NCBI GenBank assembly: GCA_903824045.1
Contig: CAIJVD010000037.1
Location: forward strand, 1 to 64,000
Source of the DNA: an uncultured Chlorobiaceae bacterium
GTDB taxonomy: Bacteria; Bacteroidota; Chlorobiia; Chlorobiales; Chlorobiaceae
DNA: 64,000 bases
Reading direction: 5' to 3'
Shown: positions 43,651 through 62,434 of the stretch, piece after piece
Position numbering within the stretch: position 1 is the stretch's first letter
How the letters are laid out: the number at the start of each line of letters is the position of its first letter
Notes under the pieces: model-generated
Database searches by the model: none
Told to the model about the DNA's origin: nothing
Seen by the model: only the letters and a program-made list of their open reading frames with translations
Made by a program: the position numbers and the translations under genes

Positions 43651-44160
43651 TTAATTCTTCCCGCGGGTAAAGAGCGCTTTCCAGCTCGCAACCTCCTGCT
43701 CACTCAGCGCCGACTGGCCGTCGAAATTGAATTTCCCCTCTTCGGAGGCGCCCTGAGGGGAGGCCGCCCTTTTCTTCAGTTCCTTTACAAATGCTTCGGA
43801 TGCCATGCAGGACGCACCGAACGCGGATGCGTAGCGGCGGATCTCCTCGTCCGAACTTACAATAGTAACCATTTTTACTTTTGTGTTCAACGATTTTACG
43901 TATTCAATGATCCAAAGGTCGGCGCTTTTTGATGCGGGAGTAAAGACAATATGGAGTGGAGCGATGAGTGGCGAATCCTGGCGGTGTCCTTTTCCATCAT
44001 AGACAACCGTTACGTGGTGTCGTGTTCTCTTTTGAAAGGCGACAAGCTCCTGCTCCATACTCCTGCGCAATGAGTCGAGCGCTGAGAGTGAGGGTGACGG
44101 AAACAGCTTGTGCATAAGATTATAGCCGTCGATGACGAACTCTTTGCAATCTCTCTTCAT
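43651..44160 (-). CDS. NYN (YacP-like) domain protein
   Basis: From the ATG at 44160 the protein has 169 residues. The PIN-like NYN fold is recognisable by EFVIDGYNLMHKLF, where the Asp and Asn are active-site positions, VTVVYDGKGH, FTPASKSADLWIIEYVKS, and VTIVSSDEEIRRYASAFGASCM. YacP/Rae1 of Bacillus is a ribosome-associated mRNA endonuclease, so an RNA-cleaving role is plausible here. The C-terminal 40 residues are probably a flexible tail. It is divergent from mraZ with the MraZ boxes in the spacer. Confidence 0.78.
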   Translation of the reverse strand: MKRDCKEFVIDGYNLMHKLFPSPSLSALDSLRRSMEQELVAFQKRTRHHVTVVYDGKGHRQDSPLIAPLHIVFTPASKSADLWIIEYVKSLNTKVKMVTIVSSDEEIRRYASAFGASCMASEAFVKELKKRAASPQGASEEGKFNFDGQSALSEQEVASWKALFTRGKN

Positions 44161-44251
44161 GGGGGGCGCTCTCTTGGAAGGCAACATAGAACCTATGCCA
44201 TAAAATAGCTGAATATTTTTTTAGTGCATCCTTTTTTAATACATTTTGTGG

Positions 44252-44276
44252 TGGTGGAAAATGGGGAAAAATGGGG
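44252..44276 (+). promoter_or_regulatory. MraZ box array ahead of the dcw cluster
   Basis: Three pentamers spaced exactly 10 bases apart: TGGTG at 44252, TGGGG at 44262 and TGGGG at 44272, separated by GAAAA and AAAAA. This matches the known MraZ operator form (TGGGN repeats with five-base spacers) by which MraZ controls its own operon. The last box ends 14 bases before the ATG at 44291. Confidence 0.75.
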
Positions 44277-44290
44277 AAGCATATCAGAGA

Positions 44291-44761
44291 ATGGCCGGCT
44301 TTATAGGAAAAGAGGTTCATGCCGTTGATGAAAAGGGGCGGCTTATGATTCCTGTCAGATTTCGGCGCAGGTTCGGTCGGCCAGCATCGGATGGCGGAAG
44401 CGGGAGCGATGTGGAGCCTGTCGAAGCGCTCTATATCAGGAAGGCCCCCGACCGTTCCATCGAGCTCTATGAACCGTTCGTCTGGGCGGGAATCAGAAAG
44501 ACCATATCGGCACTTTCCGATTTTAATCCCGAGGAGCGCTTGCTGAAGACACTCATGTATGAAAGCCTTGAGACGGTCGAGCTTGACCGGCAGGGGCGGG
44601 TTGCGCTCTCCAGGGAGTTTCTTGACCATGCAGGAATCGAAAAGGACGTTGTTATTATCGGCGCGGATACAAAAATGATTGTCTGGAAGCCCGAGCATCT
44701 TTCCGCCGTGCTCGAGGAGAGTGCAGGGCGCTTTGCATCTCTTGCCGGAAGGTATTTTTAG
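44291..44761 (+). CDS. mraZ: Transcriptional regulator MraZ
   Basis: From the ATG at 44291 the protein has 156 residues. It contains two MraZ/SpoVT-AbrB-like halves: AGFIGKEVHAVDEKGRLMIPVRFRRRF near the N-terminus and ESLETVELDRQGRVALSREFLDHAG in the second half, each with the DxxGR motif. MraZ forms rings that bind TGGGN repeats and control division and wall genes. Possible upstream starts at 44246 and 44261 would place the MraZ boxes inside the coding frame and add residues not usual for the family, so 44291 is preferred. The TAG stop overlaps the rsmH start. Confidence 0.93.
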   Translation: MAGFIGKEVHAVDEKGRLMIPVRFRRRFGRPASDGGSGSDVEPVEALYIRKAPDRSIELYEPFVWAGIRKTISALSDFNPEERLLKTLMYESLETVELDRQGRVALSREFLDHAGIEKDVVIIGADTKMIVWKPEHLSAVLEESAGRFASLAGRYF

Positions 44762-45747
44762 TGGCAACGCCGAGGGATAGCTATCACGATCCGGTGCTTC
44801 TGGAGGAGATCACGGCACTGCTGGTCAGAAAACCGGGCATCTATGTTGATGGCACCCTTGGAGGCGGCGGCCACTCTCTCGGAATTCTCAGGGCGCTCCA
44901 GGCGGCTGGGCATGCCGGCGGGTCGCTGCTGATAGGTATAGATCAGGATGACGAGGCCTTGAGGTCGGCCGCAGAGAAGCTCAGCGAGTTCGCAGGGCGG
45001 GCGGTACTTGTTCAGGGCAATTTTCAGGAGATAGAGGAGATTATAAGGCGTGTTGCCGCCGAAAAAGGCTTAAGGCCAAAGGCTGAGGGAATCCTGCTCG
45101 ATCTTGGCGTCTCATCATTTCAGATCGACACGCCGGAGCGGGGGTTCAGCTATCTTCGCCAGGGGCCGCTCGACATGCGGATGGACAGAGGTGCCACGCT
45201 CTCAGCCAGGGAGTTAGTCAACACGCTTGATGAAGGTGAGCTGGCAAGAATCATATTCAGGTATGGCGAGGAGCCGAGAAGCCGTTCAATATCGAGGGCG
45301 ATTGTCCGGCATCGCGAGAAAAACGGGGAGATCGAAACGACCGAGGAGCTTGCTTCCATTATCCGCGCGATCTGCGGTCGGGACACGGTCATTAAGACGC
45401 TCTCACGGGTTTTCCAGGCCCTGAGGATTGAGGTGAACCGCGAGCTCGAGGTGCTTCGCGAGGCTTTGCTGGGAGGCATCGCATCCCTCGATGATGGGGG
45501 GCGTATGGCGGTCATCAGCTATCACTCGCTTGAAGACCGGATCGTTAAAACGATTTTTGCCGATCAGGCCAGGAGTGACTGGGGGCCGAAAGGGGTTGGC
45601 TTGAGGGAGCCGGTCACGAAGGGTATTATCAGCCAGGTTACCCGGAAGCCGATGCTGGCGACTCCGGAGGAGATCAGCCTGAATCCAAGGGCAAGAAGTG
45701 CAAAATTGCGTGTTATAGAAAAACTCTACGAGGGGAGGTCAGCTTGA
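44761..45747 (+). CDS. rsmH: 16S rRNA (cytosine-N4)-methyltransferase RsmH (MraW)
   Basis: A 328-residue methyltransferase acting on C1402 of 16S rRNA. The start is GTG, sharing a base with the mraZ stop. The conserved N-terminal HDPVLLEEI-type segment (here YHDPVLLEEITALL) is followed by the SAM motif YVDGTLGGGGHSLGIL, ILLDLGVSSFQIDTPERGFSYLRQGPLDMRMD, and the C-terminal AVISYHSLEDRIVK with NPRARSAKLRVIE. It is the second gene of the dcw cluster and overlaps the start of the ftsL gene. Confidence 0.97.
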   Translation: MATPRDSYHDPVLLEEITALLVRKPGIYVDGTLGGGGHSLGILRALQAAGHAGGSLLIGIDQDDEALRSAAEKLSEFAGRAVLVQGNFQEIEEIIRRVAAEKGLRPKAEGILLDLGVSSFQIDTPERGFSYLRQGPLDMRMDRGATLSARELVNTLDEGELARIIFRYGEEPRSRSISRAIVRHREKNGEIETTEELASIIRAICGRDTVIKTLSRVFQALRIEVNRELEVLREALLGGIASLDDGGRMAVISYHSLEDRIVKTIFADQARSDWGPKGVGLREPVTKGIISQVTRKPMLATPEEISLNPRARSAKLRVIEKLYEGRSA

Positions 45748-46220
45748 GTGACAATAGTGGCATAGCGTCATCATTGAGGATGTTTCGGGAGCGCATCAGC
45801 AGCGCTCTGGAGCGGTTTCGCAATTCGGAGCGGACGGGGGAGCCGATGTTCGCAGGCGAAGCCGGGGCGATGCTCTCCCGTGATGATTTTTCTGATCTTG
45901 GGGATGGAGATTCGGAGCTTCGGGAGATGATCGACAAGACCTTCAAGTTCGATATCGCCTCCCTCCTGCAGCTGAGATCTTTTTTGTATCTTCTCTCTGC
46001 CACGGGGATTGTTCTCTTCCAGACCCACAACACGCTCGCAATAAAAAATCTTTCCATGCAGAATGAAAAGCTGCGTGATCAGCTGCGGATGACCTCCAGC
46101 GTGCTCACCTCACAGGAGCTGAAAGTGCATGAGCTGCACAGCATCCATAATATTGCGCAGTCTTCCGAAGGGCTTGGCCTTACTGGCTCAACTGTTCCGT
46201 CCGTCAAACTTCTGCCCTGA
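45744..46220 (+). CDS. ftsL: FtsL-like division protein
   Basis: A 158-residue protein at the ftsL position. A cytoplasmic N-terminus of about 78 residues is followed by one membrane helix (LRSFLYLLSATGIVLFQ) and a short heptad-type segment (IKNLSMQNEKLRDQLRM) leading to about 55 further periplasmic residues. This single-span plus coiled-coil layout is that of FtsL, which joins FtsQ/FtsB and activates FtsWI; the identity rests on position and topology because FtsL sequences diverge widely. The cytoplasmic part is longer than usual. Translation begins at a TTG that overlaps the rsmH stop (TTGA). Confidence 0.65.
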   Translation: MSDNSGIASSLRMFRERISSALERFRNSERTGEPMFAGEAGAMLSRDDFSDLGDGDSELREMIDKTFKFDIASLLQLRSFLYLLSATGIVLFQTHNTLAIKNLSMQNEKLRDQLRMTSSVLTSQELKVHELHSIHNIAQSSEGLGLTGSTVPSVKLLP

Positions 46221-46252
46221 ATGATGAGCAACCAATCGAACTGGACCCAACC

Positions 46253-48274
46253 ATGAGTTACCGGCAGCATGCAGGGAAACCGGAAGATCATGAGTTCGGC
46301 CGCCGGCTCGGTATCGTTGTGCTCATTTTTGCGGCCTTTATCGCCGCCATCATAGGGATGCTGCTCAGTATCCAGATCGTCAATGTCAAGGTGTGGCGGA
46401 CGAAGGCGGTCCGGCAGTACGAGCGGGTTGTGACCGAGGTTGCAGAGCGGGGGTGTATTCTCGACCGGCATTCGCGCATGCTGGCAGAAAGCATCGAGTC
46501 GGTCTCCTTTTATGCCGATCCCGTTATCGTGCGCAACTCCCCTCTTTTCAATGAAAAAGGAAAGGCGGTCATCGACCGAAAGAGCGGCAAGCAGAAAACC
46601 TTTGACAACTCAGCTGCCGTCGCCACGCTTTTTGCAAAATATCTTGGCATCAACCGCCAGCTCTGCCTCAAGGAGCTGAGTCGCCCGAAAGGGGTGATTG
46701 TGATTGGCAAAAAGATCCCCGTGTCGCGGGCTCTGCCGATACTGCAGGAGAAGATTGCGGGGGTCTGGTCGGACAAGGAGCATCAGCGCTACTACCTCAA
46801 TGTTGCATCACAGGTTATCGGCTTTACCGACAGCAAAAACATCGGGAGCAGCGGTCTTGAGCTCCAGCTCAACAAGGATCTCAAGGGCATTGACGGCACC
46901 AGGATCTTTCAGCGATCGGCCACCGGTGTCCGTTACCCCGCGCCCGAGGCAAAGCAGCAGGATGCGGTTAAAGGCAATAGCGTTCAGCTGACCATTGACG
47001 CCGACATACAGAGCATCGTCGAGGACGAGCTGACCAAGGCGGTCGGCAAGTTCCGCGCTGATGCTGCGGCATGCATCGTCATGGACGTTCGCACGGGGGA
47101 GATCCTTGCGATGGCCAACAATCCTGTTTTTGATCTCAACCAGCGGGGGTCATGGACTCCGGAGCGCTCACGCAACCGTGCGGTAACCGACAGTTACGAG
47201 CCAGGCTCGACCTTCAAGATTGTCATGGCCGCTGCGGCAACCGAGGTGCTGAAGCGGAAAGCCACCGACATGGTCTTCGCCAATAACGGGGTGCTGCCGG
47301 TCTACAACCTCTCCATCAAGGACCATGAGCCTTACGGGAACATCACCTTCCGCCAGGCGATCATGTACTCGAGCAATATCGTTGCGGCCAAGACCGCCAT
47401 GGCGGTCGGAGCCGAGCAGTTCAATGCCTATGTGCACAATTTCGGATTCGGAACAAGAACCGGCCTCGGGATTGTCGGCGAGTCCCCCGGCAGGGTTCGC
47501 CCTTTCGGAAGCTGGGACAGCACAACGCTTCCCTGGATGGGCTACGGCTATCAGGTGATGGCGACACCGCTTCAGATCCTTCAGGCATATGCGGCTGTCG
47601 CCAATGACGGCAAGCTGATGCGCCCATTCATCATCAAAAAGGTACTCGACGCCAACGGCAAGGTGGTGCGCGAGACTTTGCCCAAAATTGTGCGGCAGGC
47701 CGTCACGCCCGAGACGGCGCGATATCTCGGCCGGGAGTACTTCAAGGCGGTTGTCGACAGCGGCACCGCCAAAAGCGCCGCAGTTCCAGGCATAAGCGTT
47801 GCGGGCAAGACCGGCACCGCCCAGCGTGCCGCCGGCGGCTCATACGCCAATAAAGTCTATGTCTCCTCATTTGTCGGATACTTTCCGGTAGAGGCCCCGC
47901 TCTACGCCATCATTGTGCTGGTGGAAAATCCGAGAACTGCCTACTATGCCGCGACCGTTGCCGCACCGGTCTTTTCTTCCGTGGCATCGCGGATGATCGC
48001 CTGTTCTGAAGAGATGCAGAAAAATCTCTCATTCCGCTCTCCGGAGCAGGCGGTTATCGATTCCCTTCATACGATAGCCGTTCCGCAGCTTGCTGGAATG
48101 AATCGCCAGGAGGCGAAGCGGCTGCTGAAATGGCTCAAGCTCGACATGGATTATTCCGGAGATTCGGACGGTGTGGTTGTCGGCCAGAGCATCGCGCCCG
48201 GCGTGAAAGTCGAAAAAGAGCAGCTCGTCAAGGTGGTGCTCGGTTCGAGAAACCGGAAGAGCAAGCCGTTATGA
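46253..48274 (+). CDS. ftsI: Septal peptidoglycan transpeptidase FtsI (PBP3) with C-terminal PASTA domain
   Basis: A 673-residue class B penicillin-binding protein with one N-terminal anchor (LGIVVLIFAAFIAAIIGMLL). The dimerisation domain contains RGCILDRHSRMLAES. The transpeptidase has all three active-site motifs: SxxK in EPGSTFKIV (about residue 320), SxN in YSSNIVAA (about 372), and KTG in VAGKTGTAQ (about 516). Residues from about 605 form a PASTA domain (VPQLAGMNRQEAKRLLKWL, ending VKVVLGS). It crosslinks septal wall with FtsW. Its stop overlaps murE by four bases. Confidence 0.95.
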   Translation: MSYRQHAGKPEDHEFGRRLGIVVLIFAAFIAAIIGMLLSIQIVNVKVWRTKAVRQYERVVTEVAERGCILDRHSRMLAESIESVSFYADPVIVRNSPLFNEKGKAVIDRKSGKQKTFDNSAAVATLFAKYLGINRQLCLKELSRPKGVIVIGKKIPVSRALPILQEKIAGVWSDKEHQRYYLNVASQVIGFTDSKNIGSSGLELQLNKDLKGIDGTRIFQRSATGVRYPAPEAKQQDAVKGNSVQLTIDADIQSIVEDELTKAVGKFRADAAACIVMDVRTGEILAMANNPVFDLNQRGSWTPERSRNRAVTDSYEPGSTFKIVMAAAATEVLKRKATDMVFANNGVLPVYNLSIKDHEPYGNITFRQAIMYSSNIVAAKTAMAVGAEQFNAYVHNFGFGTRTGLGIVGESPGRVRPFGSWDSTTLPWMGYGYQVMATPLQILQAYAAVANDGKLMRPFIIKKVLDANGKVVRETLPKIVRQAVTPETARYLGREYFKAVVDSGTAKSAAVPGISVAGKTGTAQRAAGGSYANKVYVSSFVGYFPVEAPLYAIIVLVENPRTAYYAATVAAPVFSSVASRMIACSEEMQKNLSFRSPEQAVIDSLHTIAVPQLAGMNRQEAKRLLKWLKLDMDYSGDSDGVVVGQSIAPGVKVEKEQLVKVVLGSRNRKSKPL

Positions 48275-49812
48275 GTGCCACACTTGAATATGCGGGCCGC
48301 GAGGCGGTGATGCTGGAAGAGCTCCTGGCGGGAATCACTGCGCTCTCGAGGAGGGGTGCGGCTGCGCCGGGTCAGAGGGTCAGCGTGGTTACGAGTGATT
48401 CACGAGAGGTTATCCCCGGCGCGATTTTTGTGGCTGTACGAGGCTACTGCACAGACGGTCACCGCTTTATCGGCGCCGCCATCAAGAGCGGGGCGGTTGC
48501 GGTGCTCTGTGAGGAGCTCCCCCCGGATGAGGGCGACAGAGAGGTGTATATTAAGGTCGCCGATTCCAGAAAGGCGCTTGCTGAGGCGGCCCGGCTCTTT
48601 TACGGCTGCGCTTCGGATCGGCTGATGATCATCGGGGTCACCGGAACCAACGGCAAGACCACAACGGCAAGGCTGATTACGGCAATGCTCAACGCCTGCG
48701 GGATTTCGGCGGGCTATATTGGTACCAATCTCTGCTTGATCGGTGATCGGCAGATCCCCCTTGACAGGACAACCCCCGAGGCTCACGGCCTGCACGCGCT
48801 ATTTCGTCAGATGGTTGATGCCGGTTGTATGGCTGCGGTCATGGAGGTCTCCTCCCACGCCCTGATGCTCGGGCGGGTGGACGGCGTCCGCTTTCATGTG
48901 GCGCTCTTTACCAACCTGAGCATGGAGCATCTTGATTTTCACCGCACGATGCAGGAGTACGCTTCGGCCAAGCAGCGGCTTTTCGACCAGCTCGCCCCGG
49001 ACGGTTTTGCCGTGTTCAATGCGGATGATCCCCGGACGGCAGAGATGGCCCGGCGCGTCGCTCCTGAGCGGCGCTTCTGCTGCACCATGCACTCTTCGCT
49101 CCCCCTGGAGCTGGAGTGCCGGCGTCAGTTCAGGGCGGAGATAATCACGCAGTCGCTTGCTTCGAGTCGTATTGAGCTGCACTTTCCCGATGTGCAGATG
49201 ACGATGGATGTAGGGCTGCCTGGCGAGTACAATGTGATGAATGTCCTTGAAGCAGCGGCCACCGGTTTCGGTATGGGGCTTCCGCCGGAGGCGATCTGTC
49301 GATCACTGTCGGCACTCTCCGCAGTTGACGGGCGAATGGAGCGGGTGGGGCGCCTGGAGTTGGGCATGCACGCGTTTGTGGACTATGCCCATACCCCCGA
49401 TGCGCTCTTCAAGGCGTTGACAACCCTCCGGGCCCTCAAGCCCGAAGGCGGACGTCTTGTGGTTGTGTTCGGATGCGGCGGCAACCGCGACAGGGCGAAA
49501 CGGCCAGAAATGGGCAGGATCGCCTCTGAACTCGCCGACGAGGTCATTATCACCTCAGACAACCCCCGGGATGAAGATCCCCTGGCCATCCTCGACGAAA
49601 TCGCCAGCGGCATGCCGGAGGGGAGCTACAGGAGGGTGCCGGACCGGGCCGAGGCCATCCGTCAGGCAGTTGGACTGCTCCGGGAGGGAGATGTCCTTCT
49701 GGTTGCCGGTAAGGGGCACGAAAAGTATCAGGAGATTTCCGGACAGAAAGAGTATTTTTCCGACCAGGACCAATTACGCAAGTATATGCAGGAAAAGGAG
49801 TGCGGGAGATGA
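48271..49812 (+). CDS. murE: UDP-MurNAc-L-Ala-D-Glu meso-diaminopimelate ligase MurE
   Basis: From the ATG at 48271 (overlapping the ftsI stop as ATGA) the protein has 513 residues. Order of landmarks: the uracil-binding N-domain with VVTSDSREVIPGAIFVAVRG, the P-loop GVTGTNGKTTTARLI, the central VMEVSSHALMLGRVDGVRF, and the C-terminal VDYAHTPDALFKAL, FGCGGNRDRAKRPEMG and TSDNPRDEDP. The DNPRDEDP motif is the marker of diaminopimelate-adding enzymes, consistent with dapD in this window and a Gram-negative wall. The translated frame continues upstream of 48271 only as a shadow of ftsI. Confidence 0.96.
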   Translation: MSATLEYAGREAVMLEELLAGITALSRRGAAAPGQRVSVVTSDSREVIPGAIFVAVRGYCTDGHRFIGAAIKSGAVAVLCEELPPDEGDREVYIKVADSRKALAEAARLFYGCASDRLMIIGVTGTNGKTTTARLITAMLNACGISAGYIGTNLCLIGDRQIPLDRTTPEAHGLHALFRQMVDAGCMAAVMEVSSHALMLGRVDGVRFHVALFTNLSMEHLDFHRTMQEYASAKQRLFDQLAPDGFAVFNADDPRTAEMARRVAPERRFCCTMHSSLPLELECRRQFRAEIITQSLASSRIELHFPDVQMTMDVGLPGEYNVMNVLEAAATGFGMGLPPEAICRSLSALSAVDGRMERVGRLELGMHAFVDYAHTPDALFKALTTLRALKPEGGRLVVVFGCGGNRDRAKRPEMGRIASELADEVIITSDNPRDEDPLAILDEIASGMPEGSYRRVPDRAEAIRQAVGLLREGDVLLVAGKGHEKYQEISGQKEYFSDQDQLRKYMQEKECGR

Positions 49813-51230
49813 AGGGTGTGTTGAGTATTGAGGATTTCCGGAAGGTCGGCACGGTGGCGATCTCCACGGCGGCAGCTCCCCCCCTGGAAATCGAGGGACC
49901 GGTGGTGGTTATTGATTCGCGTGAGGTGAAGGGCGGCGAGATTTTTATTGCCCTCAAGGGAGACCGGACGGACGGCCACTGCTATGTCGCGAGCGTTTTC
50001 GAGAGAGGGGCGAGCTGGGCGATGGTCAGCCGGGAGTGGTATGAAGCCGAGGGCTCACCGCTCCCGCCTCCCGCAAAAGGGTTTATCGTCACCGGTGATA
50101 CCGTTCTTGGCCTTCAGGAGCTTGCACGGATCTACCGCTCCACGTTCTCCATTCCTGTAGTGGCAATCGGTGGCAGCAATGGCAAGACCACGACAAAGGA
50201 GATGGTCGCCTCCGTGCTCGGTGCCGCCTTCAGGGTCAAGATGAGCCAGGGCAACAGGAACAACCATCTCGGCGTCCCCCTGACCCTGCTCCAGCTCCGT
50301 CAGGATACCGATATCGCCGTAGTAGAGGTTGGCATCAACCATCCCGGAGAGATGGAGGAGCTTGCTGAAATCGCCATGCCTACCCATGGACTGTTGACCA
50401 ACATCGGCCATGAGCACCTCGAGTTTCTTATCGATCTTGACGGGGTTGCAGCGGCCGAACTCAAGCTTTTCGACTATCTGCTCCGTCACGGGGGGAGCTG
50501 CTTCATCAACGAGGAGGACCATCGGCTTCAGGCCGCCGGTAGCGGCGTTCAGGGCGCTATCCGTTACGGTTCAGCTGAGGGGGCAGAATCGGACTGCCGG
50601 GCGAGCGAGCTCTCCGTTGAGTCGGACGGCCGCATCTCCTTTCTGCTTTCGCTGCACGCGGACTCCGCAAGGGTGCGTTTGAATTTTACAGGAAAACACA
50701 ATGTCATCAACGCCATTGCCGCCGCCGCCGTGGGCGCTCATTTCGGACTTTCGCTGCCCCAGATAAAAGAGGGGCTTGAGCGGCTTGTTCCCGCTCCGGG
50801 CTGGAAGCGGCTCGAGGTTATCGAGAGCGGGGGCATCAGGATTCTCAACGATACCTACAACGCGAATTCGGACTCCATGCGGCTGGCCATTGACGCCTTG
50901 TGCGATCTGCCCTGTTCTGGACGCAGGATTGCCGTCCTTGGCGATATGCTCGAGCTCGGCGCGGCAGGAGATGTTGAACATGAACGGATTGGCAGGTATA
51001 TTCACGAGCGGGCCGTTGACATGATGCTTGTTTTCGGAGAGAGGGCCCGGCTGATATGCCGTGAGGCCGCTGAACGGTGCCGGGGCCATTTCGACACCCA
51101 TGAGGAGCTTCTTCGTGCCCTGCTTGAGGTTGTCCGGGAGGGCGATGCACTGCTTTTCAAGGGCTCGAGAGGCATGAAGCTCGAACAGGTGGTCGAGGCG
51201 CTGATCAAGGCCCGAATAATACAAGAATAA
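49809..51230 (+). CDS. murF: UDP-MurNAc-tripeptide D-alanyl-D-alanine ligase MurF
   Basis: A 473-residue ligase from the ATG at 49809, which overlaps the murE stop by four bases. It has VVIDSREVKGGEIFIALKG, the P-loop VAIGGSNGKTTTKEMVASVL, VEVGINHPGEMEELAEIAMPTHGLLTNIG, and the C-terminal NDTYNANSDSMRLAIDAL and VLGDMLELG. It adds D-Ala-D-Ala to complete UDP-MurNAc-pentapeptide. The C-terminal KGSRGMKLEQVVEAL is also typical. The ddl gene that makes its substrate is not in this cluster. Confidence 0.96.
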   Translation: MKGVLSIEDFRKVGTVAISTAAAPPLEIEGPVVVIDSREVKGGEIFIALKGDRTDGHCYVASVFERGASWAMVSREWYEAEGSPLPPPAKGFIVTGDTVLGLQELARIYRSTFSIPVVAIGGSNGKTTTKEMVASVLGAAFRVKMSQGNRNNHLGVPLTLLQLRQDTDIAVVEVGINHPGEMEELAEIAMPTHGLLTNIGHEHLEFLIDLDGVAAAELKLFDYLLRHGGSCFINEEDHRLQAAGSGVQGAIRYGSAEGAESDCRASELSVESDGRISFLLSLHADSARVRLNFTGKHNVINAIAAAAVGAHFGLSLPQIKEGLERLVPAPGWKRLEVIESGGIRILNDTYNANSDSMRLAIDALCDLPCSGRRIAVLGDMLELGAAGDVEHERIGRYIHERAVDMMLVFGERARLICREAAERCRGHFDTHEELLRALLEVVREGDALLFKGSRGMKLEQVVEALIKARIIQE

Positions 51231-51262
51231 CGCACATACAATAAACAGACAAGAATCCCCCT

Positions 51263-52369
51263 ATGCTCTACTATCTGCTGCATTACATCGACAGGATGTT
51301 TCGACCGCCGGGACTTCATGTCATCGAGTATCTGACCTTCAGGGCGAGTGCGGCAGCGATCACCTCGCTTCTGATTACGCTTTTTGCCGGCCCTGCATTC
51401 ATCCGCTACCTCAAGGCGCGCTTTATAGAGCCGGTCAAGGAGGAGGCGCCGCCGGAGCACAGGCAGAAAAAAGCCCTCCCGACCATGGGCGGGCTGCTTA
51501 TCATTTTTTCAATCGAGATCTCGGTGCTGCTCTGGTCGAAGTTCATCGATGCGCATGTCTGGCTGATCATGCTGGCCGTGCTCTGGATGGGTGTTATCGG
51601 CTTCATCGACGACTACCGGAAAGTTGTGCTGAAAATCAAGGGGGGGCTCTCCGCCCGATACAAGCTGATCGGTCAGGTGACGCTCGGCATGGTGATCGGT
51701 ATCTATACCTGGCGCGACCCGGCGTTTTCGGTGCTGCTTTCAACAACAACCGTCCCTTTTTTCAAGAACCTGACCATCGATTACGGCATTTTTTATATCC
51801 CGATCGTCATCTTTATCATTACAGCGGTCTCCAATGCGGTGAACCTGACTGACGGTCTTGACGGCCTTGCCTCCGGGAGCTCCGCCCTTGTGGTTATGGC
51901 TCTCGGCGGATTTTCATACCTTGCCGGTAACGCGGTCTATGCCACCTATCTGAACATTCCCTTTATTCCCGGCGGCGGCGAAATCATGGTTGTCTGCATG
52001 GCGATTGTCATGGCATGCGTTGGCTTTCTCTGGTTCAACTCGCATCCGGCCGAGATCATCATGGGCGACACCGGTTCGCTTGCGCTCGGCAGCGCCATAG
52101 CGGTCATTGCACTGCTGATCAAGCAGGAGCTGCTCCTGCCGGTGCTGGCAGGTATCTTTTTCCTCGAAACGCTCTCGGTTTCACTGCAGGTGCTCTATTT
52201 CAAATATACGAAGATGCGTTTTGGCGAGGGCAGGCGGATCTTCCTGATGGCGCCGCTCCATCACCATTTTCAGCTCAAGGGGTGGCCGGAACAGAAGATT
52301 GTGCTCAGGTTCTGGATCATCACCATTATCTTTTTCCTTACAAGTCTCATGACCCTGAAACTCAGATGA
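51263..52369 (+). CDS. mraY: Phospho-N-acetylmuramoyl-pentapeptide transferase MraY
   Basis: A 368-residue enzyme with about ten membrane helices that transfers phospho-MurNAc-pentapeptide to undecaprenyl phosphate, forming lipid I. Family motifs are [12 protein letters not shown], the catalytic Asp pair in [22 protein letters not shown], and the [19 protein letters not shown] end. The C-terminal stop overlaps the murD start by four bases; the gap to murF is 32 bases. Confidence 0.97.
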
Positions 52370-53769
52370 TTGCCATGGACGCAGCCGGAAAAAGGGTACT
52401 GGTCATCGGTGCCGGCAAGAGCGGAGTGGCCGCGGCGGAGCTGCTTCAGCGGCAGGGCGCCGAAGTGCTGGTGAGCGAAGTAGGCCCTGTCGGCGAGGAG
52501 GTGGCGGCCCGACTGCAGCAGCAGGGAATCTCCTTAGAGCAGGAGGGGCACTCCGGACGTTTTTTTGACGCCGATTTCTCGGTCGTCAGTCCCGGCATTC
52601 CCCCTCATGCACCGGTCATTCAATCGTTGCAGGCTCGAGGGGTGGCAATCTACAGCGAGATTGAGCTCGCCTCATGGTACTGCCGTGCACGGATTGTCGG
52701 CATCACCGGAACTGACGGAAAGACCACGACTTCAACCCTGATTCACCGTATCGCCGAGAGCGACGGACTCCGCAAGGGGTACCGGTCGTTCAGTGTCGGC
52801 AATATCGGCGTGCCCTTTGCTTCGAAGGTTGAGGAGATGGGGCCGGGTGACGTGGCGGTGGTCGAGCTGAGCAGCTACCAGCTTGAACGCTGCTTTACCT
52901 TCAGGCCTGAGGTCTCGGTTATCACCAATATCACCCCCGATCATCTGGCTCGCTACGGCGGCGACATGCAGCAGTATGCCGAGGCGAAGTACAGGATCTA
53001 TGCCAATCAGAAAGAGGGGGACACGCTTGTCTACAATGCGGATGACCCGATCCTCAGAAGCCATTTTGAGGGTGTGGCAGGCCGCCTTCCCTTCAGCATA
53101 ACCCCTTTCGGCCAGGATCGACCAGCTTCCGCAGAGGAGTGCCGCGCGGTGTTGATCGAAGATGATGCCGTGGTTGTGCGCACCTCCGCCGGCAGCGAGC
53201 GGGTTATTGAACTCTCTCGGGTTCTGAAGGAGAGCTTCAGGGGGAGGCACAATATCTATAACACGCTTGCCGCAGTCGCCACGGCAAGGGCGCTCGGCAT
53301 CGAGGATGATGCCGTCAGAACCGCGCTTGAGGAGTTCAGGGGGGTCGAGCACCGCCAGGAGTTTGTTGCCTCAATCGACGGCTGCGGGTGGATCAACGAC
53401 TCCAAGGCTACCAATCTCAATGCCATGCGCCAGGCGCTTGAATCGGCACCCGGACGTGTTGTCCTCATTGCCGGGGGTCAGGATAAAGGCAACGACTACC
53501 CCTCCATCGGAGGGCTTGTTCGTGAAAAGGTCACCATGCTGATCGCGATTGGAGAGTCAAAAGGAACGCTGGCATCGGCCTTTGAGGGGATCGTCCCCTT
53601 GAAGCAGGCCTCTTCGCTCGAAGAGGCGGTGCGCTTTGCCCGTGAGGCTGCAGGAAATAAAGAGAGCGTGCTTTTTTCGCCGGGGTGCGCAAGCTTCGAC
53701 ATGTTCAAGAATTTCGAGGACCGCGGCCGGCAGTTCAAACAATGCGTCCATCAATTGGAGAGATGCTGA
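52366..53769 (+). CDS. murD: UDP-MurNAc-L-alanine D-glutamate ligase MurD
   Basis: From the ATG at 52366 (ATGA overlap with mraY) the protein has 467 residues. The N-terminal Rossmann-like domain has [17 protein letters not shown]; the P-loop is [15 protein letters not shown]; the central region has [10 protein letters not shown] and the C-terminal domain [15 protein letters not shown] and [12 protein letters not shown]. The end [17 protein letters not shown] is the classic MurD C-terminal motif. The open frame further upstream is an mraY shadow. Confidence 0.96.
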
Positions 53770-54953
53770 ATACCGCCAACATTCCCGGTACTTCCCCGGA
53801 GCTTCCGGCGCCCTCTCGCGGGGCGGCTGTGGCCGGAAAGCTGCTGCTCCTGATCGTTGCCATGCTTATGTGCATCGGTATTGTCGTCGTCTACAGCAGT
53901 GGCGCGGGATGGGCGGAGACGAAATATGCAAGCACGGAGTACTTCCTCTGGCGCCAGCTTTTCTTCTCACTGCTCGGCATTGCCGTCATCGTCCTCTTCG
54001 GCCGGATCGACTACCATTTTTTCTGGAAGACCAGCAGGATCATTCTCTATAGCAGCATCGCCCTTCTCTCCCTGTTGCTGGCCATGAAGGCAGTGCATCT
54101 CATTTCTGGAGCGGCACGGTGGATCGGCTTCGGGCCGCTTAAATTTCAGGTTTCCGACTTTGCCAAGTATGCGGTAATCTTTCACTTCTCAAGGCTTATC
54201 ACCGAAAAACGCGAGTATATCAAGGATCTCAAAGACTCCTATTATCCCCTGCTCACGAACCTGATGGCTGTCGTCATCCTGGTGGCTCTCGAACCGAACT
54301 TCAGCACTGCATCCCTTATCGGCATGATAGGTTTCATGCTCATGTTTATCGGCGGGGTCAATATCCGCCACATGCTGTTGACGGCTCTGCCGCTTCTTCC
54401 CATCGCGGGTATTTTTGCCATTGCCGCGCCCTACAGGGTGGCTCGCTTGCTCTCCTTTTTCAGCGGAGATGAAAAAGGTATGAGCTACCAGGTCGTGCAG
54501 GCTTTGATCGGGCTTGGTAACGGAGGGCTCTTCGGTCTCGGCATCGGCAACAGCAAGCAGCGTGAGCTCTACCTGCCGCTCTCCTACAACGACTTTGTCT
54601 TTGTTGTCGTGGGCGAGGAGTACGGTTTTATCGGCGCCCTTGTCGTTATTGCCCTGTTTGCCGGATTTCTGGTCTGTGGCCTGATCATAGCAAAGCATGC
54701 TCCCGACAGCTTTGGCCGGTATGTTGCCAGCGGCATCACCCTTGCCATCTCCCTTTTTGCGTTCATCAATATCGCCGTCGCCTGCCACCTGCTCCCGACT
54801 ACAGGCGTCGCCCTTCCCTTTATCAGTTACGGCGGCACGGCACTGCTCTTCAACTCGCTCGGGGTCGGCATTCTCGTCAGCATATCGGGCTACAGGAAGC
54901 GGCACCCGGGAGCCCCCCTTCCAATCGACGGCGCCGAGAGGAGTGCATTATGA
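53763..54953 (+). CDS. ftsW: Septal glycosyltransferase FtsW
   Basis: From the ATG at 53763 the SEDS protein has 396 residues; an ATG at 53742 is also possible. About ten membrane helices are visible. Family markers are [57 protein letters not shown], the extracellular [30 protein letters not shown] with the catalytic Asp/Glu region, and [26 protein letters not shown]. It polymerises lipid II at the septum with FtsI. The start overlaps the murD stop by seven bases and the stop overlaps murG by four. Confidence 0.95.
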
Positions 54954-56047
54954 ACATTCTCTTTGCAGGAGGGGGAACCGGAGGGCATCTCTATCCGGCC
55001 GTGGCCATGGCGGGTGAACTGAAAAAGTTGGATCCGGGTGTTGCAATCTCCTTTGCCGGTACGACCAGCGGCATCGAGGCCACGGAAGTTCCAAGGCTCG
55101 GCTACCCTCTTCACCTGCTCCCTGTAAGGGGGCTGAAACGAGGCCGTTCACTCTCGGCTCTCATTGGCAATCTTGGCGTGCTCTCTGATTTTGCGCTCTC
55201 TCTTGGCCGTGCCGCAGCCCTCATATGGAGGGAGGCTCCCGATGTTGTCGTCGGCACCGGAGGGTTTGTCAGCGGGCCGATGCTTCTGGCGGCCCAGCTT
55301 ATGGGCAAAAAAACGCTCATCCAGGAGCAGAACGCCTTTCCCGGAGTGACCACAAAGCTGCTTTCGAGACTTGCAACCGAGGTGCATATTGCTTTTGAGG
55401 AGGCGCGAGGCTTTCTGCACAAAAAAGAGGGGGTCTTTGTCACCGGCAACCCATCCCGCACTTTCATTGTGCAGGAGCCTGACTCAGCAAGAGCCCGTTT
55501 CGGCCTTCACCACCCCCGCCCGACGCTGCTGGTCTTCGGCGGGAGCCGCGGAGCCCGCTCGATAAACAATGCCGTACTCAAGCGGCTCGACGAAATTCTC
55601 GCCGGAGCAAATCTTATCTGGCAGACCGGCTCGCTCGATTTCGACCGGATCCGCGGGCAGGTCAAGAGCTCCGAATCGCTTTTTCTGGCGCCCTATATTG
55701 AGGATATGGGTGCGGCATACGGCGCTGCCGATCTCGTGGTCTGCCGCGCAGGGGCCTCTTCGATAGCCGAACTGACCAATCTCGGAAAGCCGTCGGTGCT
55801 TATTCCCTATCCGTTCGCTACCGGCGACCATCAGCGCCACAATGCCCGTTCGCTGAATCGGGGCGGGGCCGCGATCGTCGTCGAGGACAGCGATCTTGAC
55901 GCTGATGCGGCGATACAGGAAATTCTCGGGCTGCTGCAGGACGCAGGGCGGCGCAAAGAGATGGGCGCAGCCGCCCTGAGGCTCGCCTACCCCGATGCTG
56001 CCCGCCAGCTTGCGCTGCGCATTGTCAGCCTTGCTCAACAACATTAA
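54950..56047 (+). CDS. murG: UDP-N-acetylglucosamine transferase MurG
   Basis: A 365-residue membrane-associated GT-B enzyme that adds GlcNAc to lipid I, forming lipid II. The N-terminal glycine-rich loop [18 protein letters not shown] is diagnostic. Further markers are [44 protein letters not shown], and the donor site [35 protein letters not shown]. It overlaps the ftsW stop (ATGA) and ends 15 bases before murC. Confidence 0.97.
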
Positions 56048-56062
56048 CCGCAGGGGAGTGGA

Positions 56063-57475
56063 ATGGAACTTGGCAAAACAAAAAGCGTTCATATTGTTGG
56101 TATCGGCGGGGCCGGCATGAGTGCCATTGCAGAGCTGCTGCTGAAATCGGGCTTTGGCGTGACCGGTTCGGATATTTCGACGGGAGAGGTGACCGACAAG
56201 CTTCAGGAGCACGGGGCGGTCATCTACAAGGGACACCGGGCAGAGCAGGTCGCCTCGTGCGATGTGGTTGTCTACTCATCGGCCATTCGCCCGCAGGAGA
56301 ATATCGAAATCATCGCTGCTGAAAAAGCAGGCATTCCCGTCATCAAACGCGACGAGATGCTCGGTGAGCTGATGCGCTACAAATCGGGAATCTGCGTTGC
56401 GGGAACCCATGGCAAGACGACCACCACGGCCATGATCGCCACCATGCTCATTGAGTCAGGGGAGTCTCCGACGGTCATGATCGGCGGCATATCGGACTAC
56501 CTGAAGGGGAGTACGGTTGTCGGTGAAGGAAAGTTCATGGTCATCGAGGCGGACGAGTATGACCGGGCATTTCTGAAGCTTACCCCGACCATTGCGGTCA
56601 TCAACAGTCTCGAGTCGGAGCATATGGACACCTACGGCACCCTCGAGGAGCTGAAGCATGCTTTTGTGGACTTTGCCAACAAGGTACCTTTCTACGGAAG
56701 GGTGATCTGCTGTGTTGACTGGCCTGAAATCCGCAAGATCATCCCCTCCCTGAACCGTCTCTATACCACCTTCGGCATCGAGGAGCCCGCTGATGTGATG
56801 GCCTCGGAGATCGTGCTCGAAAAAAAACGGACCACGTTTACCGTAAACGCTCAGGGTCGTGAGTTCAGGGATGTTTGCATCAATGTGCCGGGGCGACACA
56901 ATGTGCTCAATGCCCTTGCTGCTTTTTCGGTTGGCCTTGAACTGGGGCTTGAGCCCGAAAAGCTTATTGCCGGTCTTGGTCGCTACAGCGGCATGAGGCG
57001 TCGCTTCCAGGTGAAATTCGATAATGGCAAGGGTCTTCTGGTGGTTGATGATTACGCCCACCACCCCTCGGAGGTTAAGGCAACGGTCAAGGCCGCCAAA
57101 AGCGGCTGGACGGATTCGAGGGTGATTGCGATTTTCCAGCCGCATCTCTTTTCGCGCACCAAGGAGTTCGCCGACGAATACGGCTGGGCCCTTTTAAGGG
57201 CGGACAGCGTCTATGTCGCCGACGTCTATCCTTCCCGTGAAAAGGCCGAGAATTTCCCGGGTGTCGATGGAGAGCTTGTTGCTGCCGCTGTGCGCAAGGC
57301 GGGAGGCAAGCATGTCGAGTACATCCCGCACAGGGAGGCGCTGCTTGCCGCTCTCGGCCAGGAGGCCCGGAACGGGAACATGCTGCTCTTCATGGGCGCG
57401 GGAGATATCACCCATCTGGCTTCGAAGGTAGCCGAAATCTGCCGCCAGAAATCGGCGGGAGGGAGTGCATCGTGA
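56063..57475 (+). CDS. murC: UDP-N-acetylmuramate L-alanine ligase MurC
   Basis: A 470-residue ligase that starts the peptide stem. The N-terminal Rossmann motif is [17 protein letters not shown], followed by [15 protein letters not shown], the P-loop [44 protein letters not shown], and the C-terminal [20 protein letters not shown] and [13 protein letters not shown]. In many dcw clusters murB and ddl follow murC; here ftsQ follows directly after 24 bases. Confidence 0.97.
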
Positions 57476-57499
57476 ACGGAACAGAAAAAGTCGCCCTCC

Positions 57500-58393
57500 A
57501 TGCCTGACTCTCAGAACTGGAAATACCGGGATGATTTTCCGGAACCTGCGCCTCCATCGCTCCCGGAGAGCAATCCCGCAGAGCAGAGCCCCCTGGAGGC
57601 CCCGAAGGGTTCTTCCGGAAGCTGGGTTGTGATGCTCGTCGTATTTCTTGCTGTTCTCGGGGCTCTTGTCGGACTGGCAAACTATGCCGGTCACTGGAAA
57701 AAGGAGGTCGTGGTCAGGGGGTTTGTCGTCGAGGGGGTCTCAATCATCCCTCCCGGAGAGCTCCTCGGCAGAGTGACGCCCTTCAGGGGGCAGAATCTGG
57801 AGGAGCTTGACACCAGTCAACTCAAAAGCAGGATTATTTCGCACCCCTATGTCAGGGATGCGGTTATACAGAAGGAGCTGAACGGCATAGTCCGCATAAG
57901 GGTGGTGGAGCGGGTTCCTCTGGCCCTTACCGATGCAGCCGGTGTGATGATGGCTATCGACCGGGAGGGCTTTCTTCTTCCCGGAAAAGAGGCATTCCTG
58001 GAGCGAACGCCAAAGCTCCTTCGTGTCAGCGGTCTCAGCCGCCTCAAGCCGGCAGGCAACGGCCTCACGCAGATGGATCGAAGGGAAACGGCTCTGCTTT
58101 TACAGTTTCTCGACGCATTCCGGGGGAGCGAGTATGCCCCTCTTTTGATTCGCGAGTTTCACTTTTCAGACAATAATCAGAGTTACTGTATTGCCGCTCA
58201 GGCCCCCACCCGTTTTATTGTCGGCAATGACGGCAACTTCAAGGAAAAGTTGAAAAAATTCGAGATATTCTGGCAAAAGGTAGTTTCAAAGAAAGGTTTT
58301 GGCTCATTCGAGACTGTGGATCTGAGGTTCAGGGACAGAATTTTTACCAGGGATTCTGTATCTCCGGAGGTTCCGCGGGTTAACCCCCTGTGA
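57500..58393 (+). CDS. ftsQ: Cell division protein FtsQ (DivIB)
   Basis: A 297-residue bitopic protein. A proline-rich cytoplasmic region of about 35 residues leads into one membrane helix (WVVMLVVFLAVLGALVGLANY). The FtsQ POTRA segment follows (VVVRGFVVEGVSIIPPGELLGRVTPF), then SRIISHPYVRDAVIQKELNGIVRIRVVERVPLAL, typical of the FtsQ/DivIB domain. FtsQ recruits FtsBL to the division site. It sits in the canonical murC-ftsQ-ftsA-ftsZ order and ends 21 bases before ftsA. Confidence 0.92.
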   Translation: MPDSQNWKYRDDFPEPAPPSLPESNPAEQSPLEAPKGSSGSWVVMLVVFLAVLGALVGLANYAGHWKKEVVVRGFVVEGVSIIPPGELLGRVTPFRGQNLEELDTSQLKSRIISHPYVRDAVIQKELNGIVRIRVVERVPLALTDAAGVMMAIDREGFLLPGKEAFLERTPKLLRVSGLSRLKPAGNGLTQMDRRETALLLQFLDAFRGSEYAPLLIREFHFSDNNQSYCIAAQAPTRFIVGNDGNFKEKLKKFEIFWQKVVSKKGFGSFETVDLRFRDRIFTRDSVSPEVPRVNPL

Positions 58394-58414
58394 TAATCAT
58401 GCGGGAATAGTGTA

Positions 58415-59770
58415 ATGCTGAAAAGCGATATCGCTGTAGGTCTTGATATTGGGACAACGAAAGTGTGCGTTGTCGTTGCCGAAAAGGACGCTGCCGGCAA
58501 GCTTAACGTGCTCGGCAAGGGGCGTTCCGATTCCGACGGACTGCAGCGTGCTACGGTAGTCAATATAAACAAGACGGTTGCGGCTATCCGCGCGGCCGTC
58601 GCCGATGCCGAGCGGGAGTCCTCCATCCGAATCCGGGCGGTCAATGTCGGTATTTCGGGGGCGCATGTCTACTGCATCCAGAGCAGTTCGGAAATCAGCA
58701 TCAACCAGTCAGGCATTGTCAACGACTCTGACGTGAAGCGCTTTCTCGACAAAGCCAAATCCAACATCCGCTACCTCGATATCGAGCACGAGATCATTCA
58801 CGTCATCCCCCAGGAGTTCATCGTCGACGACCAGGAGGGCCTGCCCGATCCCATAGGCATGGCAGGGACGACCATGAATGGCAGCGCCTATATTGTCGTC
58901 GGGCTTAAAACCAAGATACGCAACATCCGCCAGTGCGTTGAGCAGGCCGGTCTTGAGATCGGAGCGCTGACCTTCGAGCCCGTGGCATCGGGTATGTCGG
59001 TCATGAAGGAGAGCGAGAAGAAGAGCGGTGTTGTCGTCATCGACATCGGCGGGGGAACGACTGACGTTGCTATCTATATTGACGGCGTCATCCGCTACTC
59101 CGAGGTTATCAAGGTCGCGGCAAATGATGTGACTCACGATGTTGCCTATGGAGTGAGGGCTCTCAATGAGGTTGCCGAGGATCTGAAGATCAGGCATGGA
59201 TGTGCTTCGGCAAGGATCAGCGGCGAAGATGAAGAGCTGCTTATCGAGGGGGTCGAGGGTCGTCCGCAGAAATCATTTCCAAAGAGCTCGCTGGTTATGA
59301 TCATCGAGGCTCGTATGATAGAGATTCTTGAACTGGTTCGGGACTCAATCAAGCGTTCTGATTATTACGAATACATAAATGCGGGAGCGATCATTACCGG
59401 CGGAGGCTCGCTTCTGCCGGGTACAGAGGAGCTTGCCCGCGAGGTTCTCGGGCTCGATGTGCGCATCGGTTACCCTGAAGGGGTCTCCGGCGGAATCAAG
59501 GGTTCCGTGAGCAATCCCATGTATGCCACGGTGATGGGGCTTGTCGCCCACGCCTTCCAGCACAGTCTCCCCGGTGGCAGCGGGTTTGCCATAGCGCCAG
59601 AGCCGCCGCCGCCTCCGCCGCCGCCGCCACCACCCCCGCCACCGCGCGGGGCCGCCCATCGAGCCGAGGAGAAGCGTCGCAATAAGGTGCCCAAGGAGCC
59701 TGGTCAGGCGGGTGTGCCGGTCATGGAGCGGGTGAAGGCATGGCTGAAGAATTTCTGGGCACAGCTGTGA
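58415..59770 (+). CDS. ftsA: Cell division protein FtsA with polyproline linker
   Basis: A 451-residue actin-like protein that anchors FtsZ to the membrane. ATPase motifs are VGLDIGTTKVCVVVA, VVVIDIGGGTTDVAIYIDG and AGAIITGGGSLLPGTEEL. The 1C subdomain lies between about residues 85 and 165. After the core come 14 consecutive prolines (residues 397-410, bases 59603-59644), a basic linker (RGAAHRAEEKRRNKVPKEPG), and a C-terminal amphipathic helix VMERVKAWLKNFWAQL, the membrane-targeting sequence. The linker is unusual for FtsA and would need elongation factor P for translation. Confidence 0.95.
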   Translation: MLKSDIAVGLDIGTTKVCVVVAEKDAAGKLNVLGKGRSDSDGLQRATVVNINKTVAAIRAAVADAERESSIRIRAVNVGISGAHVYCIQSSSEISINQSGIVNDSDVKRFLDKAKSNIRYLDIEHEIIHVIPQEFIVDDQEGLPDPIGMAGTTMNGSAYIVVGLKTKIRNIRQCVEQAGLEIGALTFEPVASGMSVMKESEKKSGVVVIDIGGGTTDVAIYIDGVIRYSEVIKVAANDVTHDVAYGVRALNEVAEDLKIRHGCASARISGEDEELLIEGVEGRPQKSFPKSSLVMIIEARMIEILELVRDSIKRSDYYEYINAGAIITGGGSLLPGTEELAREVLGLDVRIGYPEGVSGGIKGSVSNPMYATVMGLVAHAFQHSLPGGSGFAIAPEPPPPPPPPPPPPPPRGAAHRAEEKRRNKVPKEPGQAGVPVMERVKAWLKNFWAQL

Positions 59771-59812
59771 TGAACCGCAGAGAACGATCGTCTTTTAATG
59801 GAGAGTGGAACA

Positions 59813-61108
59813 ATGGCATTTGAGCTGGATCCCGGTCTGTTTGACAGCGACCAGGGTAAAGGGGTAACCATACGGATCGTCGGCGTCGGCGGCTGCGGAG
59901 GCAATGCGGTCAACAACATGATAGACCGCAAGATCGGCGGCGTCGAATACATCGTTTTCAATACCGACCGGCAGGCACTTTTCAACTCGAAAGCACCTCT
60001 CCGGGTGCAGATCGGCAAGAAAGCCACCAATGGCCTTGGGGCGGGTGCTGATCCTGCAAAGGGTCGCCAGGCCGCTGAGGACGACCGCGACATTATTGCT
60101 GCCCAGCTCAAGGGCGCCGACCTTGTCTTTATTGCTGCAGGAATGGGCAAGGGTACCGGTACGGGCGCGGCTCCGGTGATTGCCTCCATCGCCAGGAACA
60201 TGGGTATTCTTACCATTGGCGTCGTCACTCGGCCCTTCAACTTCGAAGGTCAGGTCAAGGCGAAGATTGCCGACGGCGGTATTGCGGAGCTGCGAAAATA
60301 TATCGACACTCTGATTCTTGTTGAAAACGAGAAGATTCTGAGCATTGCCGAGGAGGGGGTCAGTGCCACCGAGGCCTTCAATATGGCCAATGACGTCCTC
60401 TACAGGGCGGCCAAAGGCATTGCCGATATCATTACCCGCCACGGTCATGTCAATGTCGATTTTGCAGATGTCCGCAGCATTATGAGCGGAGCGGGCGATG
60501 CTGTTATGGGTTCGGCCGCCGCGGCCGGAGATCGACGCGGACTGAAAGCCGCATCGGACGCCCTCAACAGTCCCCTGCTCGACGGCGTGTCGGTCAAGGG
60601 TGCAAAGGGCGTGCTGGTCAACATTACCGGCCAGGTATCGATGTGGGAGCTGAGGGATGCCATGAGCTATATCGAGGAACAGGTTGGCAACGAGGCCAAG
60701 ATTATCAACGGCTATGTCGATGAGCCGCAGGTTTCCGGTGAAATCAGGGTGACGGTCATTGTAACAGGGTTCAAGAGGGTCTCTTCAGAGGATCGCAGCT
60801 CTGCCACGGCGCGGCTTCCCGCTTTCCCCACGGCGTCGAGCCGTCCGGTACACTCGCCCCAGTCGTCGGTCAGGCCGCCGGTTTCAACCGTTCCTGAGCG
60901 GCAGGAGGAGGACCTCCGTATCCCTGCCTATATCAGAAGGCAGCTCTCTATCCATGACCCTCATGATGTAGGTGTCAGAAAAAATTTCGGCCGCGGTGTC
61001 GACCAGCAATCGGCGCATTCCGGCTTAACAGGGGATCAAGAAGATAAAATCCAGAAAGGCTCCTCAGATACCCCGGCATATCTCCGCCGGAAAAACAACG
61101 GAATCTGA
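59813..61108 (+). CDS. ftsZ: Cell division GTPase FtsZ with two C-terminal peptide motifs
   Basis: From the ATG at 59813 the tubulin-like protein has 431 residues; an ATG at 59798 would add five. The GTPase signature is [20 protein letters not shown], with [12 protein letters not shown] at the N-terminus, NTDRQAL, and the T7 loop [12 protein letters not shown]. The core ends near residue 325. A variable linker follows. The conserved FtsZ tail motif appears twice: [10 protein letters not shown] (around 369-378) and [10 protein letters not shown] (420-429, the true C-terminus). FtsZ forms the Z ring and binds FtsA through such a tail. Confidence 0.97.
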
Positions 61109-61141
61109 TCGGGTCATTTCCGACAAACAAAAAAGGGTTTC

Positions 61142-62434
61142 ATGCATTATTGTAAGCTTACCGCAGAAGATGCGGTGGCAATGATCAAGTCAGGTGACAG
61201 AGTCTTTCTTCATACCGCAGCCGCTACTCCGCAAAGGCTGATCGAAGCGATGGTCGGAAGGGCCGACAAGCTTCGGGGGGTCGAAATCGTCAGTCTTCAC
61301 ACCGAGGGGGATGCCCCCTATGTCCGGCCGGAATACCGGGAGAGCTTCAGGATGAACGCCCTCTTTGTGGGTCGCAACATCAGGGATGCAGTTCAGCATG
61401 GAGATGCTGACGCCATTCCGGTTTTCCTGAGTGACGTTCCCTCCCTCTTCAGGAACGGAGTGCTTCCGCTCGATGTTGCCCTTGTGCATGTCTCCCCGCC
61501 CGACAGGCATGGATACTGTTCGCTCGGAGTCTCGATCGACGCGACGCTCTCTGCGGTGCATGCAGCCAGGCTTGTCATTGCCCAGGTCAATCCGAACATG
61601 CCCCGCACCCACGGCGAAGGGCTTCTGCATACCAGCAAGATTCACGCAATGGTGGATGTCTCCGATCCGCTTCTTGAGACACCGCTCCATGAGCTGAGCG
61701 CGACGGAGATCAGCATCGGCCGTCATATCGCCTCTATTGTTGAGGATGGGGCGACCCTTCAGATGGGAATCGGCGCCATTCCTGATGCGACCCTTGCGGC
61801 GCTCTCCGATCACAAGAACCTGGGGATCCATTCGGAGATGTTTTCTGACGGCGTGATTGATCTTGTCGAAAAAGGGGTGATCAACGGCAGCCAGAAGCGG
61901 ACGCACAAGGAGATCATTGTGGCAAGCTTTCTGGTCGGAACCCGGAGGCTCTATGATTTTGTCGACGACAACCCGCTCGTCGAGATGTTGCCGTCCGATT
62001 ATGTCAACGACACTCGGGAGATCCGCAAGAATCCAAAGGTGACGGCCATCAACAGCGCCCTCGAAATTGACATGACCGGCCAGGTCTGTGCCGATTCCAT
62101 TGGCCAGAAGTACTACTCCGGTATCGGGGGGCAGATGGATTTTATCCGTGGCGCGGCACTCTCAAAAGGGGGCAAGCCTATTATCGCCCTTCCCTCGACC
62201 ACCAAAGGCGGCTTGTCACGCATCGTTCCCCAGCTGAAGCCGGGCGCAGGCGTCGTGACCACCCGTGCTCACGTCCAGTACGTGGTGACCGAGTTCGGTA
62301 TTGTCAACCTGCATGGCAAGAATCTCCGCCAGAGAGCAGAGGCGCTGGCAAGTATTGCTCATCCCGACTTCCGAGAAGAGATCAGCCGCCAGGCGCACGA
62401 TCTCTTCGGCTCATACGGCCGCAGATTCAGCTGA
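61142..62434 (+). CDS. Acetyl-CoA hydrolase/CoA-transferase family protein
   Basis: A 430-residue protein of the acetyl-CoA hydrolase / 4-hydroxybutyrate CoA-transferase family. Landmarks are the N-terminal EDAVAMIKSGDRVFLHTAAATPQRL, VSPPDRHGYCSLGVSID, MGIGAIPDATLAAL, the catalytic glutamate in LGIHSEMFSDGVIDL, and YSGIGGQMDFIRGAALSKGGKPIIALPST, the oxyanion loop region. It transfers CoA between acetate and another acid, or hydrolyses acetyl-CoA. The substrate cannot be chosen from sequence; links to acetate metabolism fit a reductive-TCA organism. It starts 33 bases after ftsZ. Confidence 0.9.
   Translation: MHYCKLTAEDAVAMIKSGDRVFLHTAAATPQRLIEAMVGRADKLRGVEIVSLHTEGDAPYVRPEYRESFRMNALFVGRNIRDAVQHGDADAIPVFLSDVPSLFRNGVLPLDVALVHVSPPDRHGYCSLGVSIDATLSAVHAARLVIAQVNPNMPRTHGEGLLHTSKIHAMVDVSDPLLETPLHELSATEISIGRHIASIVEDGATLQMGIGAIPDATLAALSDHKNLGIHSEMFSDGVIDLVEKGVINGSQKRTHKEIIVASFLVGTRRLYDFVDDNPLVEMLPSDYVNDTREIRKNPKVTAINSALEIDMTGQVCADSIGQKYYSGIGGQMDFIRGAALSKGGKPIIALPSTTKGGLSRIVPQLKPGAGVVTTRAHVQYVVTEFGIVNLHGKNLRQRAEALASIAHPDFREEISRQAHDLFGSYGRRFS

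Follow-up and report, generated by a model that had tools for sequence, protein, structure and literature searches.

MraZ proteins assemble as ring-shaped oligomers and bind DNA through AbrB-like domains. In Escherichia coli K-12 (NC_000913.3), the sequence before mraZ reads TGGGAAATTG TGGGGCAAAG TGGGAATAAG, with boxes at positions -43, -33 and -23 from the ATG. According to the accessible part of PMC7761207, repression by E. coli MraZ extends over the first 11 genes, from mraZ to murC, and the promoter mraZ1p is described in the available sections of PMC5089854 as giving a 38-nt 5' UTR. With regard to Burkholderia cenocepacia, the accessible part of PMC7761207 places the MraZ repeats 3' of the -10 box, where they overlap the dcw transcription start as the E. 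coli repeats do, and reports binding of MraZ to a fragment carrying these repeats by EMSA. For Mollicutes, the MraZ box is given as AAAGTG[T/G] (Fisunov et al. 2016, as quoted in the accessible part of PMC8475190), and loss of MraZ in M. genitalium is described in the same part of that article as strongly increasing MraW and FtsZ. MraZ boxes of Chlorobi or Bacteroidota were the subject of no paper found in our literature search; most subscription journals lay outside its coverage, so this is no proof that none exists.

This study examined the mraZ locus in a stretch of 64,000 nucleotides of Chlorobiaceae DNA, hereafter the window. The features relevant to the argument are the following.

43651..44187, minus strand: divergent YacP-like NYN-domain gene, with its longest-frame start (Pfam PF05991)
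44216..44222, plus strand: seven consecutive T in the -35 region
44240..44245, plus strand: putative -10 element TACATT, assigned from conserved spacing, its first base 12 nt before box 1
44252..44281, plus strand: predicted MraZ operator of three boxes with A-tracts between them, from a pattern match and conservation in relatives
44261..44263, plus strand: in-frame ATG arising from box 2, 30 nt 5' of the likely start and probably not used
44291..44761, plus strand: mraZ from its likely true start, 156 amino acids and stop (relatives' alignment, NCBIfam, Pfam)
44761..45747, plus strand: rsmH (mraW), overlapping the mraZ stop codon (NCBIfam)
45744..61108, plus strand: remaining dcw genes, none more than 32 nt from the next

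Direct TGGG-type repeats at a 10-bp period precede mraZ in the window. The first-pass annotation had described three boxes with a 10-base period, and these were confirmed with exact coordinates, the boxes starting at 44252 (TGGTGGAAAA), 44262 (TGGGGAAAAA) and 44272 (TGGGGAAGCA) at a period of exactly 10 bases. The order in the window is TACATT (44240-44245), TTGTGG, TGGTGGAAAA TGGGGAAAAA TGGGGAAGCA from 44252, TATCAGAGA and ATG 44291; relative to this ATG the boxes lie at -39, -29 and -19, which leaves 39 nt from box 1 to the ATG. Box 1 is TGGTG and not TGGGG. It was also correctly noted that the array falls inside the stretch that a longest-frame annotation would call coding, since the longest mraZ frame opens at TTG 44246 and its second in-frame start, ATG 44261, overlaps box 2.

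The array is unique in the genome. With up to one mismatch allowed, the pattern TGGKG-N5-TGGKG-N5-TGGKG was found once in the 64-kb window, with no mismatch, and when the 64 kb were dinucleotide-shuffled 100 times, 4 shuffles contained a match at the same tolerance (mean 0.04). Across both strands of the 2,085,430-base genome, the sole match to TGGK-N6-TGGK-N6-TGGG is the array at 44252, and the reversed control gave no match in the same genome. No further three-box target was found in the genome with a more detailed pattern allowing up to 3 mismatches, which returned the 44252 array alone.

Conservation was assessed in 65 loci from a scan of GTDB genomes, all belonging to Chlorobiota by record title (L002-L066), and in 20 mraZ upstream regions of a sister genus (L099-L118), obtained from 20 of 21 genomes, the remaining one having no match. 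Together with the window these form 86 rows; removal of four duplicate or same-assembly rows left 82 (81 relatives and the window), each represented by its 300-nt upstream region. The three-box core was scored at 12 of 12 bases in 49 rows, 11 in 23, 10 in 7 and 9 in 3, and hence at 11 or more in 72, while among 1640 dinucleotide shuffles of the 300-nt regions a score of 12 was reached by none, 11 by 9 and 10 by 96. The three rows with a best array of 9 are inside the shuffle range. Counted column by column in 81 rows, all three boxes keep their TGG at 91-100%, with mostly A in between, and conservation drops off 3' of box 3. In the sister genus, the operator and the ribosome-binding site would overlap in the last 10 nt 5' of the start codon, and one of its members (L112) has box 1 and box 2 starting 9 bases apart instead of 10.

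A stricter pattern applied to 86 genomes of the family identified 44 arrays in 43 genomes, one of which has two mraZ contigs, and its reversed control gave no array in the same 86 genomes. All 44 arrays sit 29-140 nt upstream of mraZ. The boxes vary, and this pattern misses 43 of the 86 genomes, including that of the window, whose array falls outside it because box 2 is TGGGGAAAAA. As the looser scoring gives 11-12 of 12 in 72 of the 82 rows, the missing genomes at least partly reflect a limit of the pattern. In the wider phylum, 11 or 12 of the 12 core bases were present within the scanned 560 nt in 21 of 30 loci. These loci are the best-scoring MraZ domain matches in 394 phylum genomes and do not sample the phylum at random; none of 600 base shuffles of these regions reached 11 core bases. 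The first-pass annotation had proposed that MraZ autoregulates the whole dcw cluster in this phylum. The Chlorobiaceae arrays and the wider-phylum loci do argue for a widespread site, and this evidence concerns the site, not its regulatory action there. An MraZ operator of the kind described in Proteobacteria and Mollicutes is thus conserved in front of mraZ throughout the green sulphur bacteria.

The position of the array is related to the putative promoter. TACATT or TACCTT is located 10-13 nt 5' of box 1 in 79 of the 86 rows, the remaining 7 showing a spacing of 14 (one), 22 (one) or 24 (one) or no such motif in the searched stretch (four), and at columns -34 to -30 relative to box 1, 88-96% of 81 rows have a T. 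A generic promoter scan did not list TACATT 44240-44245, and this putative -10 differs from TATAAT. In contrast to this near-constant spacing, the array of relatives can be as near to the mraZ start as 29 nt or as far from it as 140 nt, and the 82 rows form groups with 29-39 nt (24 rows), 60-65 nt (5 rows) and 90-140 nt (53 rows) between box 1 and the start codon. An array that holds its place next to the putative promoter even when the gene is 100 nt nearer or farther is a transcription element and not coding sequence. In green sulphur bacteria, the operator thus keeps its position relative to the putative promoter, whatever its distance to the start codon. The YacP-like NYN-domain gene at 43651-44187 shares the intergenic region with mraZ; of 63 relatives tested, 46 have a YacP-like match of at least 158 residues upstream of mraZ, and another locus has a match of only 22 residues.

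A start of mraZ at ATG 44291 is well supported by comparison, in line with the start favoured by the first-pass annotation. The protein matches of all 65 GTDB loci begin at residue 1, the methionine at 44291, which is also where the NCBIfam MraZ model begins; an in-frame stop lies between the array and the start in 43 of the 82 rows; and in the nine rows that were translated, likeness upstream of the start is seen only where the boxes fall. The boxes alone, on which that annotation had relied, are insufficient to fix the start because an operator could lie inside a coding region. The same data bear on the possibility that the repeats are coding, with mraZ starting at TTG 44246 or ATG 44261 and the periodicity belonging to an N-terminal extension. 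Although the frame has no stop between TTG 44246 and mraZ, includes ATG 44261 and has GGTGG just 5' of that ATG, the array follows the promoter and not the reading frame, and TTG 44246 would fall 5' of the inferred transcription start. Given the relatives' alignments, the in-frame stops and the non-conservation of the peptide, a coding extension was rejected as highly improbable. The comparison thereby fixes the likely mraZ start in this genome. The three (A/G)TGG boxes (44252-44281), being spaced by 10 bases, offer a potential start codon in each of the three reading frames, and one of them is therefore in frame with mraZ unless a stop intervenes. Such an array may be a built-in cause of mis-called mraZ starts, where automatic annotation can fail.

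Two other explanations accept 44291 as the start. The G-rich boxes could act mainly in translation, as a Shine-Dalgarno sequence instead of a protein-binding operator, which would suit the 20 sister-genus genomes, where box 3 is directly 5' of the start codon at Shine-Dalgarno distance, and three more relatives in which it is likewise placed (L048-L050). However, in 53 of the 82 rows more than 85 nt separate the array from the start codon, yet its boxes are conserved there too, and ribosome binding needs no three boxes at an exact 10-bp period. Since the array keeps to the putative promoter while its distance to the start varies between 29 and 140 nt, a translation element was rejected, and we consider it extremely improbable. 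It is very unlikely, too, that the array serves some other regulator or that MraZ acts there as an activator. The former is conceivable in that MraZ binding to the array in this lineage is deduced from homology; but the sequence, period and position agree with those of the E. coli MraZ boxes, and the array is present only beside mraZ. An activator role could draw on Mollicutes, for which the accessible part of PMC8475190 links more FtsZ to mraZ loss in one species as well as to MraZ overexpression in a different one, whereas the place of the array over the inferred start point fits repression.

The gene downstream encodes a member of the MraZ family. It is the first gene of the dcw cluster, and its product exceeds the cut-off of the curated full-length NCBIfam equivalog model (193.8 against 162 bits), also matches Pfam PF02381, and resembles by sequence the solved MraZ structures 9qlr, 9sx6, 9qlg and 1n0e. 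From mraZ to ftsZ (44291-61108), every gene is on the plus strand and closely spaced. The part at 45744..61108 comprises a small gene in the ftsL position, an FtsI/PBP2-type transpeptidase gene, murE, murF, mraY, murD, ftsW, murG, murC, a gene in the ftsQ position, ftsA and ftsZ. The assignments of rsmH, murE, murF, mraY, murD, murG, murC, ftsA and ftsZ are above NCBIfam cut-offs; ftsW is the best NCBIfam match of its gene, slightly below the cut-off (322.7 against 337.5 bits), the transpeptidase gene matches PBP2/FtsI-type NCBIfam models below their cut-offs, and the genes in the ftsL and ftsQ positions, with no NCBIfam match, are named by position. Scans of 44100-61500 gave 12 promoter-like sites against 7.3 in shuffles (sd 2.9) and 17 terminator-like sites against 15.2 (sd 4.2); being near the chance level, they say nothing for or against internal promoters.

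Taken together, the array is very probably the MraZ operator of the dcw promoter, through which MraZ made from ATG 44291 would repress in negative feedback. What the analysis itself shows is that the array is present, that it occurs once in the genome, that its spacing to the putative promoter is conserved and, through comparison with relatives, where the protein starts. RNA polymerase would recognise the promoter with its -10 at 44240-44245 and, by analogy, start transcription near box 1, at approximately 44251-44257. MraZ translated from ATG 44291 would then assemble as a ring and contact the three TGGG-type boxes, whose spacing of one helical turn puts them on the same DNA face, with A-tracts in between. 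Bound there, MraZ would mask the start point along with the earliest bases of the transcript, and could repress mraZ and the genes co-transcribed with it, perhaps as far as ftsZ, the outcome being a negative feedback loop. Binding, ring assembly and repression are carried over here from E. coli, Burkholderia and Mollicutes. Homology with the E. coli and B. cenocepacia systems, the latter as presented in the accessible part of PMC7761207, makes MraZ autoregulation likely in this lineage.

Many Chlorobium relatives (e.g. L011, L022, L028, L033, L035 and L060) have 90-140 nt between box 1 and the start, with a T-run-bearing leader of about 100 nt 3' of the operator. A T6 run is present in 31 of the 53 long leaders against 8.2 expected, and a terminator-like hairpin in 9 of the 53 against 1.6 expected by base shuffling, in rows that are related and not independent; the mean folding z over the 53 is -0.71. 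In several of these leaders, box 3 is the 5' arm of the terminator-like hairpin. That the third box doubles, in some relatives, as a DNA operator for MraZ and an RNA attenuator of the dcw operon is unlikely, and the terminator-like attenuator, being weakly supported, was set aside as a side lead. If it were true, the genome of the window, which lacks the leader (39 nt from box 1 to the ATG), would have DNA-level control alone. Long mraZ leaders with a terminator are described in the available sections of PMC5089854 as exclusive to Rhodobacteraceae.

As judged from its sequence, the array in the window is a canonical MraZ operator and an ordinary member of the known class. Like E. coli mraZ1p (Pmra; Eraso et al. 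2014, by way of PMC7761207 and PMC5089854), it has three boxes at a 10-bp period between the promoter and the mraZ start, and the distances to the ATG are nearly the same (-43/-33/-23 in E. coli and -39/-29/-19 in the window), whereas the A-tracts are more regular in the window and box 1 is TGGT there. B. cenocepacia PmraBc, as described in the accessible part of PMC7761207, likewise has repeats with a 10-nt period (7 nt and a 3-nt spacer), lying 3' of the -10 box and covering the transcription start, both of which are putative in the window; in contrast, it has four repeats and the window has three. The Mollicutes, according to the accessible part of PMC8475190, share with the window direct repeats in the mraZ promoter and, in M. 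genitalium, one site per genome, and differ in the repeat core, which is AAAGTG[T/G] there and AAARTGGK in the window.
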